From positions 1-26,856 of the forward strand of contig JAILHX010000081.1 in NCBI GenBank assembly GCA_024695565.1: a stretch of 26,856 bases of DNA, read 5' to 3'. A program made the translations under genes and the position numbers. Each line of letters begins with the position of its first letter. Position 1 is the first letter of the stretch. Of this stretch, positions 10,590 to 25,768 are shown piece after piece. The notes beneath the pieces were generated by a model. The model saw only the letters and a list, made by a program, of their open reading frames with translations, was not told the origin of the DNA and made no database searches. Origin of the DNA: Saccharofermentans sp. GTDB taxonomy: Bacteria; Bacillota_A; Clostridia; Saccharofermentanales; Saccharofermentanaceae.

Positions 10590-12020
10590 TCAGGTATTTT
10601 CAGATAACCAGAAGTCGCAATAGTAGCTTCCTTCGTACTCGCTCTCTCGATAGCAGATGATATAGTCCTGATCGTCTTCACATGTGATCCAGTATCCGGC
10701 ATCATATCCGCCGCTTAAATCGTATTCTTCAATCTCAAGCGCGCCGTCTCCATAGTATTCAACAAAGGCATCTACGATCTCCTGAACCTTTTCGGGATCG
10801 TGTATCCTGAACTGCATTGTAAATTCAATATGGTTAGTGAATGAGTAGCCTGTAGCACTAAAGCTAGATACATGATCAAGTTTCTCATCAGGCAGGATTC
10901 CGTCATAGCACATGAACAGGCCTTCACCGTCGCTGTCAGGATCACAATCAGCCGGATACTCAAGTTCTTTGCCGAAGTTAGGAAGGTTCTTGATCTCGTA
11001 TCCGTGCGAGATAACACGGTAATGATCATAAACTCCTATGATCTCTTCGGCTGACAGATCCTCAATAATATAGTAATGATCTTCGCCTTCGTAGCCGCCA
11101 TTCTCATAGAACTCACGTCCATATGTCTCTCTGGTGGTTTCTTCAATCGTGTGATCTATAGCATCATCTGTCGGATTCAGTTCAGTGTCCTGAACCGCAA
11201 TGCTTGCATCTGCCTGAGGCCTTGCGCTTGCTGCCTTTGTAATGAGAACAATGACGCCTGCTGTTGCTGCCACTGTAACTAAACCTGCTGCCGCAATACT
11301 GCCAATAACAATTTTATTAATCATAATTCCTGTCCCTTTCTTTGCTGCTTGAATAGCGGTGTTTGTTCCGGCTCCCTTGACCGGAACCTTAGCTGATGCG
11401 GACAGATTTATGAGTGATGCAGGCATTGCCTTGAAAGGCACCTGCTCGGCTTCTTTGATAAACAGTTTGCTTAGGAATGGCAACGCCATGCTAAACAACT
11501 TTGTATTGTTATCTTTTTCATATTTCTCGACCTCCTTCTTGATCTTTTTCTTCGCAAAGTTAAGGCGCCACAGAACCGTTCCCTGAGGGATTCCCAGTGC
11601 GTCTGCGATCTCTCTGGTAGTCATCTCATCGAAGTAGAAGAGTATCAATGTAGCTCTTACTTCCTGAGACAATGCCTCATCAATGATCCGCATTACGATA
11701 GCACGGGCATCTGCCGATTCAACTATGGAATCGGGCAGGAAATCCTCGGGCACAGCTTCCTGACTGTCAAAGAACTCTTCATCCATGTTGTCTGTTTTCG
11801 CGAGCTTGATGCGATCGAGACACTTGTTGGCGGCGATCTTCTTAAGCCACGGCAGAACCTTGTCCTTATCCTTCAGTGAATCGTAGGATTCGATCAGGGT
11901 TACAAACGTGTCCTGAACTACGTCTTCTGCGTCTGCTTCATTCTTAAGAAGCGCGAAAGCGGTCCAATACACGGCGCGGTAGGCTTCGTTATAGATCTTT
12001 TCAAGTTCTTTGTCTGTCAC
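10590..12020 (-). CDS. Membrane-tethered sigma-70 family (ECF-like) sigma factor with extracellular domain
   Basis: The start is GTG 12020 (VTDKELEKIYNEAY), chosen because GAAAGGAG lies ten bases upstream; 476 aa. Region 2 is at about residues 5-75 (ALLKNEADAEDVVQDTFVTL, then LPWLKKIAANKCLDRIK). Region 4 is at about 110-175 (FYFDEMTTREIADALGIPQGTVLWRLNFAKKKI). A linker of about 60 aa leads to one membrane segment (about 237-262, GSIAAAGLVTVAATAGVIVLI), then an acidic, Tyr-rich extracellular domain of about 210 aa to the end. The tail is not recognisably the one on the sigma factors at the right of the window. No separate anti-sigma gene is adjacent, so the protein may be held at the membrane and sense by itself. 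How region 2/4 would be released is unknown. It is followed by a strong terminator. Confidence 0.85.
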   Translation of the reverse strand: MTDKELEKIYNEAYRAVYWTAFALLKNEADAEDVVQDTFVTLIESYDSLKDKDKVLPWLKKIAANKCLDRIKLAKTDNMDEEFFDSQEAVPEDFLPDSIVESADARAIVMRIIDEALSQEVRATLILFYFDEMTTREIADALGIPQGTVLWRLNFAKKKIKKEVEKYEKDNNTKLFSMALPFLSKLFIKEAEQVPFKAMPASLINLSASAKVPVKGAGTNTAIQAAKKGTGIMINKIVIGSIAAAGLVTVAATAGVIVLITKAASARPQADASIAVQDTELNPTDDAIDHTIEETTRETYGREFYENGGYEGEDHYYIIEDLSAEEIIGVYDHYRVISHGYEIKNLPNFGKELEYPADCDPDSDGEGLFMCYDGILPDEKLDHVSSFSATGYSFTNHIEFTMQFRIHDPEKVQEIVDAFVEYYGDGALEIEEYDLSGGYDAGYWITCEDDQDYIICYRESEYEGSYYCDFWLSENT

Positions 12021-12144
12021 TTGACTTTGCTCCTTTCTATCCGCATCTACTCTATAGACGAACAAGCGATGCGAATTATTGGGTGGTTTCAAGAAATTTT
12101 TTCGAGATTTTTATATTACCATTCGAAAAGTACTTCGCGCCCCA

Positions 12145-18625: not shown

Positions 18626-18658
18626 GTGAACCTGCCTGAGATCTGCATCGTCTTATAG
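18626..18658 (+). promoter_or_regulatory. ECF-type promoter of the SGNH hydrolase/sigma operon
   Basis: GTGAAC with GAAC at 18628-18631, 17 bases, then CGTCTTATAG at 18649-18658. GAAC and CGTC at this spacing are the classic ECF -35 and -10 elements. The same elements at the same spacing stand before the sigma gene at 25769, followed by an identical run through the transcription start. Confidence 0.8.
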
Positions 18659-18664
18659 GCAAAA

Positions 18665-18680
18665 GATGACAAAGATCATC
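18665..18680 (+). promoter_or_regulatory. Short 5' leader hairpin shared with the second sigma gene
   Basis: GATGA at 18665-18669 pairs with TCATC at 18676-18680, a few bases after the expected transcription start. The copy at 25734-25749 pairs GATGAT with ATCATC; the loop sequence differs while the stem is kept. It could stabilise the mRNA 5' end or be an operator. Confidence 0.5.
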
Positions 18681-18701
18681 GTAAAAACAGGAGGATTACT
18701 T

Positions 18702-19674: not shown

Positions 19675-19824
19675 ATGGCAAACATAAACGGGCAAACTGT
19701 TCCCTTTCTCACAAGATTCTTCAGGGCCTGGGCGGATGACATCCAGGTACCTGACAAGGATCCGCCGGGAATTGAGCGAACAAGCAACGATCTGTGCGAA
19801 CTGGGAAACTCTGACCAACAGTAA
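19675..19824 (+). CDS. Small ORF of 49 aa, hypothetical
   Basis: ATG at 19675 with GGGGGAA upstream at a normal distance; ends TAA at 19824. The protein is soluble, with no membrane segment: MANINGQTVPFLTRFF, then a stretch rich in Asp, Pro and Glu. It sits 25 bases after the membrane-protein gene and 37 bases before the next start, so it would be part of the operon. No family recognised. Support is only the start signal and position. Confidence 0.45.
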   Translation: MANINGQTVPFLTRFFRAWADDIQVPDKDPPGIERTSNDLCELGNSDQQ

Positions 19825-19861
19825 GTATCAATATGCAATCAACAAAATGAGGAATAAGACC

Positions 19862-20509
19862 ATGACAAAGAAAAAACATTTCCCTATCGGACTTCTAATT
19901 GTGCTCATAGTACTCGGCGCCGGTTTGATCGGCGGTGCTGTCTTTGCAGTCATCAAGATGAACAGCAAAGAACCCGAACCGGATCTGGATCATACGATCC
20001 CTTCTGAGTATTTGAATGAATACCCCGATATCGAAAAGTACTTCGAAGAGAATTCCACGATAAGATCCATAAGCTTTGTAAAAAATTCAGAAGATAATTA
20101 TTCAGAAGAGAACATCATTGATGAGCTTGAATCACGCGGCTTTGGTGATATGGGCATTATGTCTAACTATTCGATTGATGGAACATATGATGATTCAATT
20201 GAAGTATCAGATTCTGAGACCCAACATCCCCAATACATTACATACTATGAGAGCAGCAGCGGTGAGCTCTGGGCAATAATCGTAGTCGAGGACAGCATCA
20301 CCGCGAATCCCATCACATACAATCTTCAGCACCCCGATGCTGTTCAGATCACGGTATCCGAGAAGAACGAGATCGTCAGCTACGACAGCAGTACTAACAG
20401 TTATTACAGAACAATTCCTAATGAATCTGTTTTAGATGTCCGCATTGTCGAAAAGATCGATGCGGAGACGCTTGATTCATTGACATCGGAGGTTTTATAC
20501 AATGCTTAA
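19862..20509 (+). CDS. Membrane-anchored extracellular protein, unknown function
   Basis: The start at 19862 (MTKKKHFPIGLL) has GAGG nine bases upstream; a start at 19847 is the alternative. 215 aa. Lys-rich N-terminus, then one membrane segment (about residues 8-31, GLLIVLIVLGAGLIGGAVFAV), then an acidic extracellular domain of about 180 aa rich in Ser, Asp, Glu and Tyr, without cysteines. The topology (short positive cytoplasmic end, single helix, outside domain) copies that of the sigma factors without their DNA-binding part. No lipobox, no recognisable catalytic motif. The stop overlaps the start of the SGNH hydrolase gene by eight bases, implying coupled translation. Confidence 0.7.
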   Translation: MTKKKHFPIGLLIVLIVLGAGLIGGAVFAVIKMNSKEPEPDLDHTIPSEYLNEYPDIEKYFEENSTIRSISFVKNSEDNYSEENIIDELESRGFGDMGIMSNYSIDGTYDDSIEVSDSETQHPQYITYYESSSGELWAIIVVEDSITANPITYNLQHPDAVQITVSEKNEIVSYDSSTNSYYRTIPNESVLDVRIVEKIDAETLDSLTSEVLYNA

Positions 20510-22967
20510 TAAAAACGTGATTTACAAAGTAATCACTCTGTTACTGGTGCCGATAATTACTGTTTCATTTCTTATCCCCATAACCAGCTATGCCGATGAC
20601 GGACAGGATGAAAAAAAGGGACCCATAGTACTCTCACTTGGAGATTCTTATTCTTCCGGTGAAGGAATCGAACCTTTTTACGGACAGGAGAAGCCGATAT
20701 ATGAGAGATGCAACGACCAGGACTGGCTTGCCCACAGATCACAATTAGCATGGTCAGGTATGTTAAAAGTACCGGGTATAGACGGCCTTCTGACTTACAG
20801 CAAAGGCGAGAACTACTTCTTTTACGCTTCATCAGGCGCTACAACAGGGGATTTCTATGGTCAGCAGGAAAAGACTTATTCCCGAGAATTCGTGAATGGA
20901 AAGGTAAAACTTCCTTCACAGCTGGATGCGTTTAAACAGTTTGAAGGAGATCCGGATTATGTCACTCTCACGCTTGGCGGAAACGATGCCGGCTTTGTTG
21001 ACATTCTGTCTTTGGCAGTCGTTACCGGAAAGTTCCAGTTCCCAACTATTCTAAAGGATTCTTTAGATGCAGTCTGGCTCGATTTTTACATGCCCGGCGG
21101 AATCAGCGATCATCTTTACAAATGCTATCTGGATATAGACAAATTATCTCATGGCAATGCCAAGATAATAGTTGCAGGTTATCCCAAACTGGTCAATATT
21201 AATGGCGGCGGACTTTTCTTTAATAAAGATGAGGCTGAAATGATAGATAAAAACGTCCATGATTTCAATGAAGCTATAAAAAAGCTGGTAGATAAAAGCA
21301 GAGAAAACGGAATAAAGATATACTTCGTCTCTGTAGAAGAAGAATTTGAAGGACACGAAGCATATACAGAAGATCCGTGGATCAATGGAATAATTCCGGG
21401 AATGCAGGCTCAGGATCTGTACGACCATTTTGATATTCCGAATTCGATCGTCAGTGCATATTCTTTTCATCCGACATTCGATGGTGCTTCAGCATATAGG
21501 AATTGCGTACAAATGAAAATCTACGAACTGGAAGGTATTGACCCCACTACGATTCCCAATCCTTTCCCGACATCTGTACCCACACCGACCTTATCTCCTG
21601 CCGAGACACCGGCTGAACCTACAGAGGTTCCCGCAATGCCAACAGAAGTGCCTGCTGAGCCAACAGATCCTACAGTTCCGACTGATACAACAACAACTGT
21701 AACTCCTGGCAGCGGGGCATATATAGATATTCTGTATCAGTATCAGAATGAAATAATCACTTATGAGGCAGCATACGGGTGCTATTCAATTAACTATATT
21801 GACATAACACATGACGATATTAATGATCTTATGTTCTTGTACTGTCCCAGCAGTAACACGTCATATGTGAGGTTAGCAATTTATTCTTACGATTCTTCAA
21901 CAGACACAGCAGTTTGCCTGTTAGATAGAGACGTTACTGAAGGCGGAGCTTTTGAAGATGCAGCGCTGTTGGATAACGGTAATCTTGTTTACTATAGATT
22001 CTACGATCCAATCGAAGGTGATGACGACGATTTTGACGAATGGGAAGGACATCTTTACGAAGTTGAATTAGACGGAGCAGAAGGTGTCGTTATCAACCAT
22101 TGGTCATGCGATCCGGGTTATAACTCATATCTAAACGGTGAATTTGCTGGTCCCGGTAATGTTTTCGATGAGGCATTTGACGATTATAAGAGTCAGGTAG
22201 TTTTACCGATAATGCCGGAATATCGCACAATAGAGGACTACTCGGATCCGTCTTACTATAGCGAATACGGATTAATGACCAGAGAAATCTACGATGCCGG
22301 CGACTACTATTACATCAACGATCTGATCGCATTGCTCAGCGGAGATCCAGGAACTGTAGTTACACCTACAACAGGGACGACACCGGCTGCATCGTTCTCA
22401 AACGAAATAAAGGAAGCTTATCTTGACGTGGTCAATAACATCTCTTATGACGACTTCCAAAAGAGCGGTGATTATGCTCCTACCGAAGGTGAATTCGCTT
22501 TTGATCTCATATATGTAAACGATGATGATATTCCTGAACTTCTGATCACTCACATTTTATATAATTCCTATTGCGGTGATATGTATACTTCTAACCTCTA
22601 CACATATGCAGACGGGAATGTTGTCGAATTAATGCACTGCTGCCGATCCGAGTATTTAAACGACAATACTGTTTACTATCCGCGCGAAAACCTGATAGTA
22701 CAGTTCTATAAAGACAATTATCAGACATATTTTTATGTAGCAACGAGGATCAATGGCAGCAACGCAGATGAAACTTACTATGAAGAGTTTTACGATGAGA
22801 CCATAGAAGGAATGGAGATCCACTACTATCTCTACGATCACTCGACATATTCGGAAATAAGAGAAGTTACTGAAGAGGCATTTACCGCTGATATCAGAGG
22901 AATTTCCGCATCCACGCCTTTTGTTGCAACTAAATCTTTAAATGAAATCCAGGGAGTATTACAATAA
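20502..22967 (+). CDS. Secreted SGNH/GDSL-family hydrolase with C-terminal tail module shared with the adjacent sigma factor
   Basis: 821 aa; start with GGAGG nine bases upstream. Signal peptide residues 1-31 (hydrophobic core VITLLLVPIITVSFLIPI, cleavage near SYA-DD). SGNH domain about 40-340: nucleophile in LSLGDSYSSGEG near 48, GGNDAGF near 160, catalytic His in SFHPTFDG near 322. This resembles the SEST-like lipase/esterase branch. Then a Pro/Thr-rich linker (about 345-405) and a two-part tail: module A (about 407-620) with YIDITHDDINDLMFLYC, a short Thr/Pro linker, and module B (about 635-821) with FDLIYVNDDDIPELLI. The Asp-Asp-x-Pro-Glu-Leu pattern is common in Clostridia extracellular proteins. 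The tail is a close copy of the end of the next gene. Likely an exported esterase acting on cell-wall or plant polymer; substrate unknown. Confidence 0.85.
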   Translation: MLNKNVIYKVITLLLVPIITVSFLIPITSYADDGQDEKKGPIVLSLGDSYSSGEGIEPFYGQEKPIYERCNDQDWLAHRSQLAWSGMLKVPGIDGLLTYSKGENYFFYASSGATTGDFYGQQEKTYSREFVNGKVKLPSQLDAFKQFEGDPDYVTLTLGGNDAGFVDILSLAVVTGKFQFPTILKDSLDAVWLDFYMPGGISDHLYKCYLDIDKLSHGNAKIIVAGYPKLVNINGGGLFFNKDEAEMIDKNVHDFNEAIKKLVDKSRENGIKIYFVSVEEEFEGHEAYTEDPWINGIIPGMQAQDLYDHFDIPNSIVSAYSFHPTFDGASAYRNCVQMKIYELEGIDPTTIPNPFPTSVPTPTLSPAETPAEPTEVPAMPTEVPAEPTDPTVPTDTTTTVTPGSGAYIDILYQYQNEIITYEAAYGCYSINYIDITHDDINDLMFLYCPSSNTSYVRLAIYSYDSSTDTAVCLLDRDVTEGGAFEDAALLDNGNLVYYRFYDPIEGDDDDFDEWEGHLYEVELDGAEGVVINHWSCDPGYNSYLNGEFAGPGNVFDEAFDDYKSQVVLPIMPEYRTIEDYSDPSYYSEYGLMTREIYDAGDYYYINDLIALLSGDPGTVVTPTTGTTPAASFSNEIKEAYLDVVNNISYDDFQKSGDYAPTEGEFAFDLIYVNDDDIPELLITHILYNSYCGDMYTSNLYTYADGNVVELMHCCRSEYLNDNTVYYPRENLIVQFYKDNYQTYFYVATRINGSNADETYYEEFYDETIEGMEIHYYLYDHSTYSEIREVTEEAFTADIRGISASTPFVATKSLNEIQGVLQ
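21678..22967 (+). repeat. Duplicated tail module, copy in the SGNH hydrolase
   Basis: This segment matches 24316-25686 along its length at protein level, and strongly at DNA level in its first half. Positions 21871-21917 are identical to 24509-24555 (47 bases). The similarity is weakest in the last 350 bases (module B). Confidence 0.85.
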
Positions 22968-22971
22968 GGTA

Positions 22972-25686
22972 ATGGCTAAGGAAGATGACATTTTTGAACA
23001 ATACGCGGAACTCGTAAGAAGATTTAAGTCAGGCGATGAGTCAGCGTTTACCGATATCTACGAGAACTCCAAAAAACTCGTTTATGTAACCTGCTTAGGT
23101 ATCCTCAACAACGAACAGGATGCTGAAGACGCTATGCAGGAGACATATCTGACCGTCTACGAGAAGCTCGGAACATTAGACGCCGAGAATACATTCGTTA
23201 CTTGGCTCAAGACAATCGCAGCCAACAAGGCCCGCGACAAGTTCAAGGCCAAGAGGAATGACGCTTCCTACGACGACGTATTGGCGACCGAAGACTATAC
23301 AGCGGGCGACGATAATCTTGAGAATCTCCCTGACGCCATCATCCTGGAAAAGGATAAACGCAACACGTTCTACAAGATCATGAGGAAAGAACTCTCTGAC
23401 GAGCAGTTCCAGACAACCCTCCTCTACTATTACGATGAGCTGCCCGTATCCAAGATCGCACAGATCATGGAATGCCCCGAAAACACCGTAAAATCCAAGC
23501 TCAGACTTGCCCGCGTAAAGATCAAGGCAGGCATCGAAGAATACGAGAAGAAGAACAAGATCAGCATCCTCGGCGCAGCTGCAGGAACAGGATCTCTCGG
23601 AAACTTCTTCAACGCTTACTACAACACTGTCAAAGTTCCTACAATCAAGGGTCTTCCCGGCAAGGTCGGCATCGGCGCGAAGAGCGCAGCAGGCAAGGTT
23701 GCCGGCAAAACCGCTGTCAAGGCAGCAGCCAAGACAGGTGCCAAGGTCGGACATGCAGCTGCAGGCACTACAGCCAAAGTCGCAGCCACATCTTCCCTTC
23801 CCAAGGTTCTCGCTATCGTCAGCGCTTCTGTCCTCGGTGTAGGCGCGATCGGCGGCGGTGTATTTGTCGCAACACAAGTGATCCAGGACGAAGACGATGA
23901 AGACAAGAAATCATACGAGATCGAATACGATGGTCTCTACTGCAACATCGACAAGACTGATGAGATAACAAAGTGCCTGAGATTCTATTCAGACGGCAAA
24001 GTTATTTCCACGGAATTCGAGTACGGCTCCGACAGTCACTTCCCTGACGGCTCCTGGTTCAACCTGGATTCAGGTGATGAGCGCGTAGATGAAGGCACAT
24101 ACGATGTCGACGGCAGCAAGATCGAAATAAGCTTCGAAGACGATGATTATTCCGGCTACATCATGAAAGAAAGCGTCTATATCGATGATCTAAAGTACAA
24201 GTATTATGAATTCGACGATATCGACGGTTACATCCCTGAGGCGGAAATCACTGAACCTACTGATCCGACCGAGACAGGAACGACTGATCCTACAGACACA
24301 ACGGATCCAACAGATCCGACTGATACAACGACAGCTGTAACTCCTATAAGCGGAGCATATTTGAATATTCTGTACCAGTATCAGAACGAGATCATCGCAT
24401 ATGAGACAGCATACGGGTGCTATTCAACTAACTATATAGACATAACGTATGATGATACTAATGATCTGATGTTCTTGTACTGTCCTAACAGTGACTCGTC
24501 AGATATCAGGTTAGCAATTTATTCTTACGATTCTTCAACAGACACAGCAGTTTGCATGTTAGACAGAGATGTAACTGTAATTGAAGGTGGAGATTTTAGT
24601 GGTGCCGCACTGCTTAGTAACGGCAATTTAGTTTGCTCCAGATCCTTTGCAGGCTACGATGAAGATGATTTCTGGGTCGAAGAAGCATATGTTTATGAGG
24701 TTGTTTTAGACGGTGCAGAAGGTTCCGTAATAGATGAATGGTCATGCGATCAGGGTTATAACACATATCACAACGGTGAATTCGCAGGTACTGGAGTTGT
24801 TTTCGATGAGGCATTTGACGATTATACGAGTCAAATTGTTTTACCGATAATGCCATCTGACTGGATGATAGAGGATTACTCGGATCCTTCTTATTCTGGT
24901 GAATACGGATTAATATCCAGAGAAATCTACGATGCCGGCGACTACTATTACGTCAACGATCTGATCGCTTTGCTTGGCGGAGATTCGGGAACTGTAGTTA
25001 CGCCTACTACTGAGACGACACCGGTTGCGTCATTCTCAAATGAATTAAAGGAAGCTTATCTGACAAAGATCAATTCAATAACTTTAGACGATTTTACTGA
25101 TGACGATTATCGTGATCCTCCTGTCGCCGATGAAATATCATTTGATTTGGTCTACATAAACGACGATGATATTCCGGAACTGATCTGTTCGTGCTCAGAA
25201 TACTCTATTGGTCTTCAATACGAGGGTTACATAATCTATACAAATGTCTACACTTTTGCAAACGGAGAAGTCATTGAATTGTGCCGTCGATTTAAATCGT
25301 CTGTCGATGATACTTTTTCGAATATTGTAGGCACAAAATACTATTACAGACAAAACCTGATAGTGTTCGGTGGAACAGAAGGTAATGGTACGCACTATTT
25401 CAATTTCAATTACACATATGTCATCAACGACGATTGTATGGGTGTTTATAAATCATATTATGTATGTGGCGATTCATTGTCAGTTGATTATTCAAGCGGC
25501 TACCCGGAGTTATTGAACGAGGCTCCTGATGGCAAGTATCACTACTATATCGGAGAATTACCTTCGTATTCATCTTATACGGAAATAACCGAAGCCGAAT
25601 ACACTGCCGCAACAACCGGAACAGGTGATTCAAGGCCTTTGGTTGCAACAAAATCGATAGATGAGATAACCCTTGAATTAAGTTGA
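22972..25686 (+). CDS. Transmembrane sigma-70 family (ECF-like) sigma factor with large extracellular tail
   Basis: The start at 22972 (MAKEDDIFEQYAELVRRFK) fits its paralogue at 25769 (MDDGNNIFEQYADLVRRFK) and lies four bases after the SGNH stop; 904 aa. Region 2 about 10-85 (ILNNEQDAEDAMQETYLTVY), region 4 about 125-190 (YYYDELPVSKIAQIMECPENTVKSKLRLARVKIK). Then a low-complexity Ala/Gly/Lys linker (about 200-272), one membrane segment (about 276-302), extracellular domain 1 (about 310-420, YEIEYDGLYCNIDKTDE onwards), a Thr/Pro/Asp linker (TDPT repeats, 423-456), and modules A and B (457-904) shared with the SGNH hydrolase. It probably binds an outside ligand through the modules and delivers regions 2/4 to RNA polymerase by an unknown step. 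The ECF-type promoter upstream of the operon implies autoregulation. Confidence 0.9.
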   Translation: MAKEDDIFEQYAELVRRFKSGDESAFTDIYENSKKLVYVTCLGILNNEQDAEDAMQETYLTVYEKLGTLDAENTFVTWLKTIAANKARDKFKAKRNDASYDDVLATEDYTAGDDNLENLPDAIILEKDKRNTFYKIMRKELSDEQFQTTLLYYYDELPVSKIAQIMECPENTVKSKLRLARVKIKAGIEEYEKKNKISILGAAAGTGSLGNFFNAYYNTVKVPTIKGLPGKVGIGAKSAAGKVAGKTAVKAAAKTGAKVGHAAAGTTAKVAATSSLPKVLAIVSASVLGVGAIGGGVFVATQVIQDEDDEDKKSYEIEYDGLYCNIDKTDEITKCLRFYSDGKVISTEFEYGSDSHFPDGSWFNLDSGDERVDEGTYDVDGSKIEISFEDDDYSGYIMKESVYIDDLKYKYYEFDDIDGYIPEAEITEPTDPTETGTTDPTDTTDPTDPTDTTTAVTPISGAYLNILYQYQNEIIAYETAYGCYSTNYIDITYDDTNDLMFLYCPNSDSSDIRLAIYSYDSSTDTAVCMLDRDVTVIEGGDFSGAALLSNGNLVCSRSFAGYDEDDFWVEEAYVYEVVLDGAEGSVIDEWSCDQGYNTYHNGEFAGTGVVFDEAFDDYTSQIVLPIMPSDWMIEDYSDPSYSGEYGLISREIYDAGDYYYVNDLIALLGGDSGTVVTPTTETTPVASFSNELKEAYLTKINSITLDDFTDDDYRDPPVADEISFDLVYINDDDIPELICSCSEYSIGLQYEGYIIYTNVYTFANGEVIELCRRFKSSVDDTFSNIVGTKYYYRQNLIVFGGTEGNGTHYFNFNYTYVINDDCMGVYKSYYVCGDSLSVDYSSGYPELLNEAPDGKYHYYIGELPSYSSYTEITEAEYTAATTGTGDSRPLVATKSIDEITLELS
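24316..25686 (+). repeat. Duplicated tail module, copy in the sigma factor
   Basis: Counterpart of 21678-22967. It encodes the extracellular modules A and B of the sigma factor; DNA identity is patchy but includes a 47-base identical run, so the duplication or gene conversion is fairly recent. Confidence 0.85.
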
Positions 25687-25696
25687 TAATTTGTGT

Positions 25697-25727
25697 GAAC
25701 TTTCGTTGATCCGACGTCGTCTTATAG
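25697..25727 (+). promoter_or_regulatory. ECF-type promoter of the second sigma gene
   Basis: GAAC at 25697-25700, 17 bases, then CGTCTTATAG at 25718-25727. From 25718 the next 21 bases equal those from 18649. Spacers between -35 and -10 are unrelated, so the match is in the elements that a sigma factor would read. Confidence 0.8.
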
Positions 25728-25733
25728 GCAAAA

Positions 25734-25749
25734 GATGATATGAATCATC
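25734..25749 (+). promoter_or_regulatory. Leader hairpin before the second sigma gene
   Basis: GATGAT (25734-25739), loop ATGA, ATCATC (25744-25749), followed by an AAAAAGGAG ribosome binding site. It is the counterpart of 18665-18680. Confidence 0.5.
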
Positions 25750-25768
25750 GAAAAAGGAGAATAAAAAG

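Follow-up and report, generated by a model that had tools for sequence, protein, structure and literature searches.

The window analysed here, a stretch of 26,856 nucleotides from Saccharofermentans sp. (contig JAILHX010000081.1), carries on its forward strand a predicted operon in which a secreted SGNH hydrolase is followed by an extracytoplasmic function (ECF) sigma factor that continues into a membrane segment and an extracellular tail (TM-ECF 1). That these two genes belong to one predicted transcription unit, starting at an ECF-type promoter sequence, is supported by the sequence features of the locus. Gene 1, a small open reading frame (ORF) and a small exported protein, which we call UP, precede them in the same unit, and a second TM-ECF gene with its own promoter copy follows (Table 1). 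The initial annotation had placed both ORFs correctly, and its numbering of the sigma factor as a 904-aa protein fits the start at 22972 deduced from alignment with relatives. Because this start is the more likely one, the hydrolase and sigma factor genes probably do not overlap.

Table 1. Positions of the genes, domains and promoter sequences in the window.
Feature	Position	Strand	Basis or remark
ECF-type promoter GAACCT-N15-CGTCTTATAGG, operon head	18628..18659	+	0 mismatches to consensus
Gene 1, hydrophobic membrane protein, 327 aa	18666..19649 (probable start 18702)	+	ORF
Small ORF, 49 aa, with PFLTRFFRAWADDIQVP motif	19675..19824	+	motif and profile A7
UP, small exported membrane-anchored protein	19736..20509 (probable start 19862)	+	frequent hydrolase partner
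SGNH hydrolase, secreted, 821 aa	20502..22967	+	ORF, family profile A3
Hydrolase catalytic domain	about 20619-21536	+	profile/alignment A3
MOD copy A of hydrolase tail	21696..22343	+	domain profiles; 74.6% identical to sigma MOD A
MOD copy B of hydrolase tail	22395..22964	+	domain profiles; 46% identical to sigma MOD B
TM-ECF sigma factor 1	22942..25686 (probable start 22972)	+	ORF, Pfam, TIGR02937, hydropathy
Sigma domains 2 and 4 of TM-ECF 1	22984..23577	+	Pfam, domain profiles
Conserved helix behind sigma4, LGNFFNAYYNTVKVP in TM-ECF 1	23578..23640	+	alignment A5
Membrane segment of TM-ECF 1, predicted	23779..23871	+	hydropathy
Ectodomain D0 of TM-ECF 1, about 114 aa	23890..24231	+	domain profiles
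MOD copy A, sigma ectodomain	24334..24981	+	domain profiles
MOD copy B, sigma ectodomain	25033..25683	+	domain profiles
Promoter, second copy (GAACTT-N15-CGTCTTATAGG), before sigma 2	25697..25728	+	1 mismatch; ~40 nt before ORF
TM-ECF sigma factor 2, open at contig end	25769..26856	+	ORF, Pfam, BLASTP
Third TM-ECF, without named ectodomains	10590..12092 (probable start 12020)	-	profiles; second-type conserved leader 12040-12060

Both sigma regions of TM-ECF 1 score above the Pfam gathering cut-offs, as Sigma70_r2 (PF04542, 44.9 bits; cut-off 24) and Sigma70_r4_2 (PF08281, 31.1 bits; cut-off 25.7), and TIGR02937 gives 74.3 bits (cut-off 42.9). Hydropathy indicates a single membrane segment at about residues 280-310. 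Behind it, the domain profiles place D0, a domain present in the window clade of TM-ECFs, and then two copies of a domain designated MOD. These results bear out the earlier proposal that sensor, membrane anchor and sigma factor are combined in one protein. In the Pfam scan, neither a zinc-finger family nor a FecR-type match was obtained for the window sigma factors at E ≤ 1, and the scan gave no RsgI_N match in them. TM-ECF 2 is 83% identical to TM-ECF 1 over 362 aa (BLASTP).

The sigma factor and the hydrolase align by BLASTP with 52% identity over 521 aa (E = 4e-129), which upholds the claim of the initial annotation that they share their extracellular tail. At the DNA level, repeats of 289, 173 and 227 nt (82-86% identity) are all separated by the same offset, 2638. 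The longest identical run (21870 in the hydrolase, 24508 in the sigma factor) had been given as 47 bases; the run is present, and its length is 48 nt. Because of the sequence identity, a common fold of the two tails is near certain. The tail had also been described as a two-part module. The repeat structure is confirmed, but the two parts are homologous: a profile made from either half detects both halves, and the tail is therefore one domain of ~200 aa, MOD, in tandem. In comparisons of sequence and fold, with a predicted sigma copy, MOD resembles the PliI lysozyme inhibitors (PliI/XAC2610) weakly and non-significantly. Domain searches of the window sigma factor and MOD found no carbohydrate-binding module family and no sign of sugar or polysaccharide binding by MOD.

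The hydrolase has one N-terminal hydrophobic segment, as judged by hydropathy. In alignment A3, which comprises 10 catalytic domains of the hydrolase family, the SGNH blocks GDS, GGN and SxH are kept as invariant G8 D9 S10, G120 G121 N122, S282 and H284. PF13472 scores 24.1 bits on the hydrolase, below the curated Pfam cut-off of 32.9, and profile A3 matches the PDB entries 4hyq (phospholipase A1, E = 1.8e-22) and 5mal (lipase, E = 2.4e-21). Among 99 relatives, 10 contain the family (11 genes), and in one clostridial order it was detected in 13 of 188 genomes. In 9 of the 11 hydrolase loci outside the window, UP precedes the hydrolase; the exceptions are L132, which has a different protein at this position, and L136, which ends at the contig end. 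Usually, no TM-ECF adjoins the hydrolase, which weakens the earlier interpretation. With the window included, 9 of 12 hydrolase tails match some TM-ECF ectodomain (E < 1e-3), 4 match a TM-ECF ectodomain of the same genome, and 3 match none.

Two layouts recur in the regions upstream of TM-ECF genes. That of the window clade, GAACCT-N15-YGTCYTATAGG, has exactly two matches with at most two mismatches in the window, at 18628 and 25697, which head both TM-ECF units; none of 100 shuffled windows contained a match. The hydrolase unit thus begins with an ECF-type promoter sequence common to other TM-ECF genes, and the regulon link drawn in the initial annotation gains substance from it. The presence of the promoter pair before both TM-ECF units suggests autoregulation. 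In four relatives, 12 of 17 matches with at most two mismatches lie within 5 kb of a TM-ECF (own count), as do all six perfect matches. The pattern GAAC-N16/17-CGTC was found in 10 of 92 TM-ECF operon heads versus 5 of 252 control genes from the same loci (p = 0.0011). At one mismatch or fewer, the scanned loci hold 15 distinct sites, and 14 of them are followed by an ORF: four TM-ECFs, eight secreted, lipo- or membrane proteins (assigned by eye; the one in L238 is a gene 1 relative), one domain-T protein and one 79-aa ORF. None of these sites lies in the 11 hydrolase loci outside the window, nor did a looser regular expression find one in the 260 nt before UP in 9 of these 11. Behind both promoter copies of the window lies AAAAGATGA...TCATCG (18649-18690 and 25718-25755), possibly a short hairpin of the leader RNA.

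Searching with the tail gave 5 matches among 7992 scored candidates, namely four TM-ECFs and the window's own hydrolase. With the sigma half, 224 matches were obtained, and in some of the best 120 the sigma part is followed by C-type lectin, RHS, DUF6273, LRR or FG-GAP domains. Scanning genome contigs yielded 80 loci; the best 22, from clostridial metagenome-assembled genomes, many of them of rumen or gut origin, were used, and the remaining 58 were set aside because we judged them to be generic sigma matches. In one clostridial order, the TM-ECF profile matched 78 of the 188 genomes (E ≤ 1e-25, at most five candidates scored per genome). In 130 examined loci, some of which overlap, 127 of 136 sigma ORFs have a later membrane segment with at least 80 aa behind it. 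Removal of near-copies left 98 TM-ECFs, 63 of them without any of the four named domains. As judged by these comparisons, TM-ECFs with exchangeable ectodomains are widespread. C-type lectin and DUF6273 are seen among the ectodomains of P0026, P0027, P0036, L004 and L136. DUF6273 is reportedly named in papers on the targets of diversity-generating retroelements.

An exported neighbour matches the TM-ECF's own ectodomain in 9 of 89 cases (8 loci); the permutation mean is 1.97, and none of 2000 permutations reached 9. One of these neighbours, in L146 (4983-6536, + strand), is a relative of the TM-ECFs without a sigma domain. It has kept the membrane segment and two DUF6273 domains, and its 22 N-terminal residues are 86% identical to those of the adjoining TM-ECF. 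With this degenerate TM-ECF removed, 7 of 87 cases remain, from 7 loci, against a permutation mean of 1.58 (2 of 5000 permutations reached 7). In a pair control that defined "exported" more strictly, a match is seen in 10 of 107 pairs of a sigma factor and an exported neighbour (8 of 105 without L146), and in 161 of 14814 and 99 of 11492 pairs drawn from different loci; adjacency clearly raises sharing (p = 4e-7, or 2.5e-5 without L146). In L136, an adjacent TM-ECF and hydrolase both carry DUF6273 followed by T (E = 7e-38), a match of the window type built from other domains. Outside the window and L146, identity within the matched pairs is 27-36%, and because of this low value the pairs appear to be old, yet they are still adjacent. 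The TM-ECFs of L160, L164, L165, L191, L223 and L228 adjoin exported proteins that share their ectodomain, several of them lipoprotein-like, and the sharing lies partly in domains outside the named profiles.

By its motif and profile, the 49-aa peptide of the operon is a relative of the helix that follows sigma4 in TM-ECFs, encoded as a free-standing ORF. In 56 of 98 TM-ECFs, a strict PFLT[KR]FF-type motif stands just behind sigma4, and many of the others have looser forms; the window sigma factor has LGNFFNAYY where many relatives have the PFLTRFF type. L219, F222, F223 and P233 are the invariant columns of this helix in alignment A5. Within 700 nt upstream of 10 of 98 TM-ECF genes lies a free-standing ORF, about 40-50 aa long, that bears the motif, and the window peptide lies 3.2 kb upstream of TM-ECF 1 in the same operon. 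Besides the window, peptide ORFs are present in L002, L003, L006, L009, L010, L011, L013, L016, L017 and L020; the three that were tested gave no Pfam match. Profile A7, constructed from 11 peptides, has 24 matches in 12 genomes. Ten of them are inside long TM-ECF ORFs, outside the training set, with E values down to 3.9e-7. Of the 14 free-standing matches, 13 lie within about 4 kb of a TM-ECF (own count; 10 were in the training set), and one (G008:C13) has no known TM-ECF nearby. Our guess is that the peptide is an in-trans counterpart of the sigma-side helix.

Relatives of gene 1 stand beside TM-ECFs in L099, L016 and L156, the latter two being near-identical loci with just 30-33% identity to gene 1 over 92-145 aa, and a relative also follows a one-mismatch promoter copy in L238/L257. 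The order in L016 is the gene 1 relative (30% over 145 aa), the small peptide and the TM-ECF. In the window, the UP-hydrolase pair separates the peptide from the TM-ECF, which suggests that it was inserted into an older sensor operon.

The reading that we prefer is a one-protein transmembrane switch, in which the MOD pair targets sensor and enzyme to the same partner and the operon is autoregulated; we give it about an even chance of being correct. The ectodomain (D0 and two MOD) would be outside the cell, anchored by the single membrane segment, and the N-terminal ECF sigma domain would be held at the membrane. When a ligand meets MOD, the protein would be cut, most likely by regulated intramembrane proteolysis, and the sigma domain freed, as in IutY (PMC8999054) and as proposed for ECF52 (PMC5826349). 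The freed sigma domain would transcribe from GAACCT-N15-YGTCYTATAGG promoters, which head its own operon, including the SGNH hydrolase with its MOD pair, and the tandem second TM-ECF. Through the common MOD pair, sensor and enzyme would most likely recognise one and the same partner outside the cell. An older operon of gene 1, small peptide and TM-ECF probably received the UP-hydrolase cassette by insertion, and the first MOD copy would have been homogenised between enzyme and sensor after that insertion. The sequences themselves show the architecture, the common domains, the conservation of the promoter sequence, the spacing of the operon and the occurrence of the cassette and of the core gene order in other genomes; ligand sharing, proteolysis, use of the promoter, the insertion history and the part played by the peptide are inferred from them.

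Several observations weigh against this scheme. MOD is present in 14 of the 16 genomes searched (40 matches) and, among the 30 of 40 matches that were assigned to loci, lies on 12 ORFs that are not sigma factors, of which 10 have a lipobox-like N-terminus as judged by eye; occurrence on unrelated proteins, which the initial annotation had named as speaking against its proposal, is thus seen in part. Such a distribution would be expected from plain domain shuffling, in which MOD, DUF6273 and T are common clostridial extracellular domains spread by local duplication or gene conversion, and the tail is shared by descent and not for a common ligand. We consider this explanation possible, although we rather doubt it. 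The two halves of the tail speak for it as well. MOD A of the window sigma factor is 74.6% identical to that of the hydrolase and 51% to that of P0004, the TM-ECF sigma factor that is the best match of the tail search, whereas MOD B of the window sigma factor is 65% identical to P0004 and 46% to the hydrolase. Because the order of identities reverses, it was probably the first half alone that in this lineage passed between enzyme and sensor by copying or conversion, and the earlier description of the tails as copies is to be corrected accordingly; homogenisation is limited to the first half. Exported proteins also share domains with exported neighbours (3 of 67 pairs), so local duplication may explain the sharing, and this proportion is not significantly lower than that of the sigma-exported pairs (p = 0.37, 0.53 without L146), which gives no evidence that sigma factors are a special case. 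Moreover, L191 and L223, two of the seven matches, are related pairs, the L136 genes are convergent and hence not one operon, and G050 and G057 have hydrolase tails like TM-ECF ectodomains and no TM-ECF that we could find. Shuffling accounts less easily for the old matched pairs that have stayed adjacent, for the agreement of the L136 pair in both domains and their order, and for the promoter, which at no more than one mismatch is confined to the window among the 12 hydrolase loci.

The hydrolase tail might instead bind the sensor ectodomain itself in a homotypic contact, with the enzyme or its substrate-bound form as the signal or co-receptor. The tandem MOD on both partners and their predicted co-expression would suit this arrangement, and the PliI-like hints lend weak support to a related idea, binding of MOD to a protein and not to a sugar; because the second MOD halves differ between the partners and 80 of 87 TM-ECFs have no matching exported neighbour, we regard it as unlikely. 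The promoter raises a separate doubt. Its consensus was drawn from TM-ECF loci, window sites included, so that the association is partly built in, and a reversed control pattern gave 12 matches against the 17 at two mismatches or fewer, so that the matches with two mismatches are mostly noise. With the motif near background at this threshold, the promoter could be read by another ECF sigma factor, the TM-ECF being a passenger or having lost sensing, and the loss of the sigma domain in the L146 relative indicates that decay does happen. We consider this very unlikely, since the perfect matches all lie close to TM-ECFs (with the consensus taken from such loci) and the window sigma domains are intact, above the curated cut-offs. 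Two further points count against the switch or say little for it: the Pfam scan recognised no anti-sigma domain in the window sigma factor, and an RseP-type protease, although present in 5 of 5 relatives, is equally present in 14 of 14 control genomes. Such a protease is expected in most bacteria.

The sensor domains of RsgI resemble those of the enzymes, and the enzyme PdaC shares the ectodomain of RsiV; to our knowledge, sigma-I is not of the ECF type of the window TM-ECF. SigI/RsgI of Clostridium thermocellum is similar in having several paralogous membrane sensors with differing extracellular domains in one genome, and its RseP/ClpXP cascade is usable as a model; sigma factor and sensor are two proteins there and one ORF in the window (PMC12203970). 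In RsiV/SigV of Bacillus subtilis, an ECF sigma factor is likewise under the control of an extracellular domain with a protein ligand, lysozyme, whose binding is followed by site-1 cleavage and regulated intramembrane proteolysis (PMC4183432). The anti-sigma factor is a separate protein in that system, and neither T nor MOD gave a match to its DUF4163/DUF3298 domains.

Closer counterparts are the membrane-fused ECF sigma factors. ECF52 (SCO4117, Streptomyces) combines ECF domain, zinc finger, membrane segment and carbohydrate-binding domain, with the zinc finger between sigma domain and membrane segment; proteolytic release has been proposed and positive autoregulation suggested (PMC5826349). 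It resembles the window protein in uniting an ECF domain, a membrane segment, a proline-rich linker and a C-terminal extracellular module, and differs in its zinc finger, for which the window protein has no recognised equivalent, in being reported there only from Actinobacteria, whereas the relatives of the window protein are Clostridia, and in that the window ectodomain is MOD, which the adjoining enzyme also bears (PMC5826349). IutY (ECF243, Pseudomonas putida) is likewise a membrane-fused ECF, its sigma and membrane anti-sigma parts being joined and freed by regulated intramembrane proteolysis; in contrast to the window sigma factor, which has no FecR-type match, it acts in iron-starvation cell-surface signalling (PMC8999054). 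ECF262 of Ruminococcus albus is tabulated under "Others" as an ECF with a regulatory extension (PMC8999054) and, compared by this table entry alone, may be the present TM-ECF class. The statement of the initial annotation that no system of exactly this form had been described was thus too strong, since the membrane-fused ECF sigma factor is a kind already in print (ECF52, PMC5826349; IutY, PMC8999054).

The large repertoire of exchangeable ectodomains, the enzyme with the sensor ectodomain in the sensor's own predicted operon and the micro-peptide are unusual; the exported neighbour sharing the TM-ECF ectodomain, the promoter sequence and the 49-aa operon peptide look new. If the switch is real, transmembrane signalling would be reduced to a single protein, with a copy of its sensor part on the effector that it activates, and the ligands of ectodomains could be read from the enzymes that bear them, and vice versa, in a large group of mostly uncultured gut bacteria. 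The promoter would be a candidate predictor of regulons, and the small peptide a testable new control element. More tentatively, the rumen and gut Clostridia may have arrays of one-protein membrane sigma factors with exchangeable ectodomains, some of them mirrored in type on a secreted enzyme or lipoprotein next door or in the regulon, which would direct sensor and effector to a common extracellular target. A peptide of ~40-50 aa in the operon, related to the helix behind sigma4, would then regulate the switch in trans, and in the MOD branch the target may be a protein, such as a peptidoglycan hydrolase, and not a polysaccharide.

The other upstream layout is seen at the third TM-ECF, which lies on the minus strand of the window and has a different ectodomain. 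Its leader at 12040-12060 reads CGTCTATAG..AGATGCGGA followed by AGGAG, and an upstream arm matches it in part, possibly forming a hairpin.

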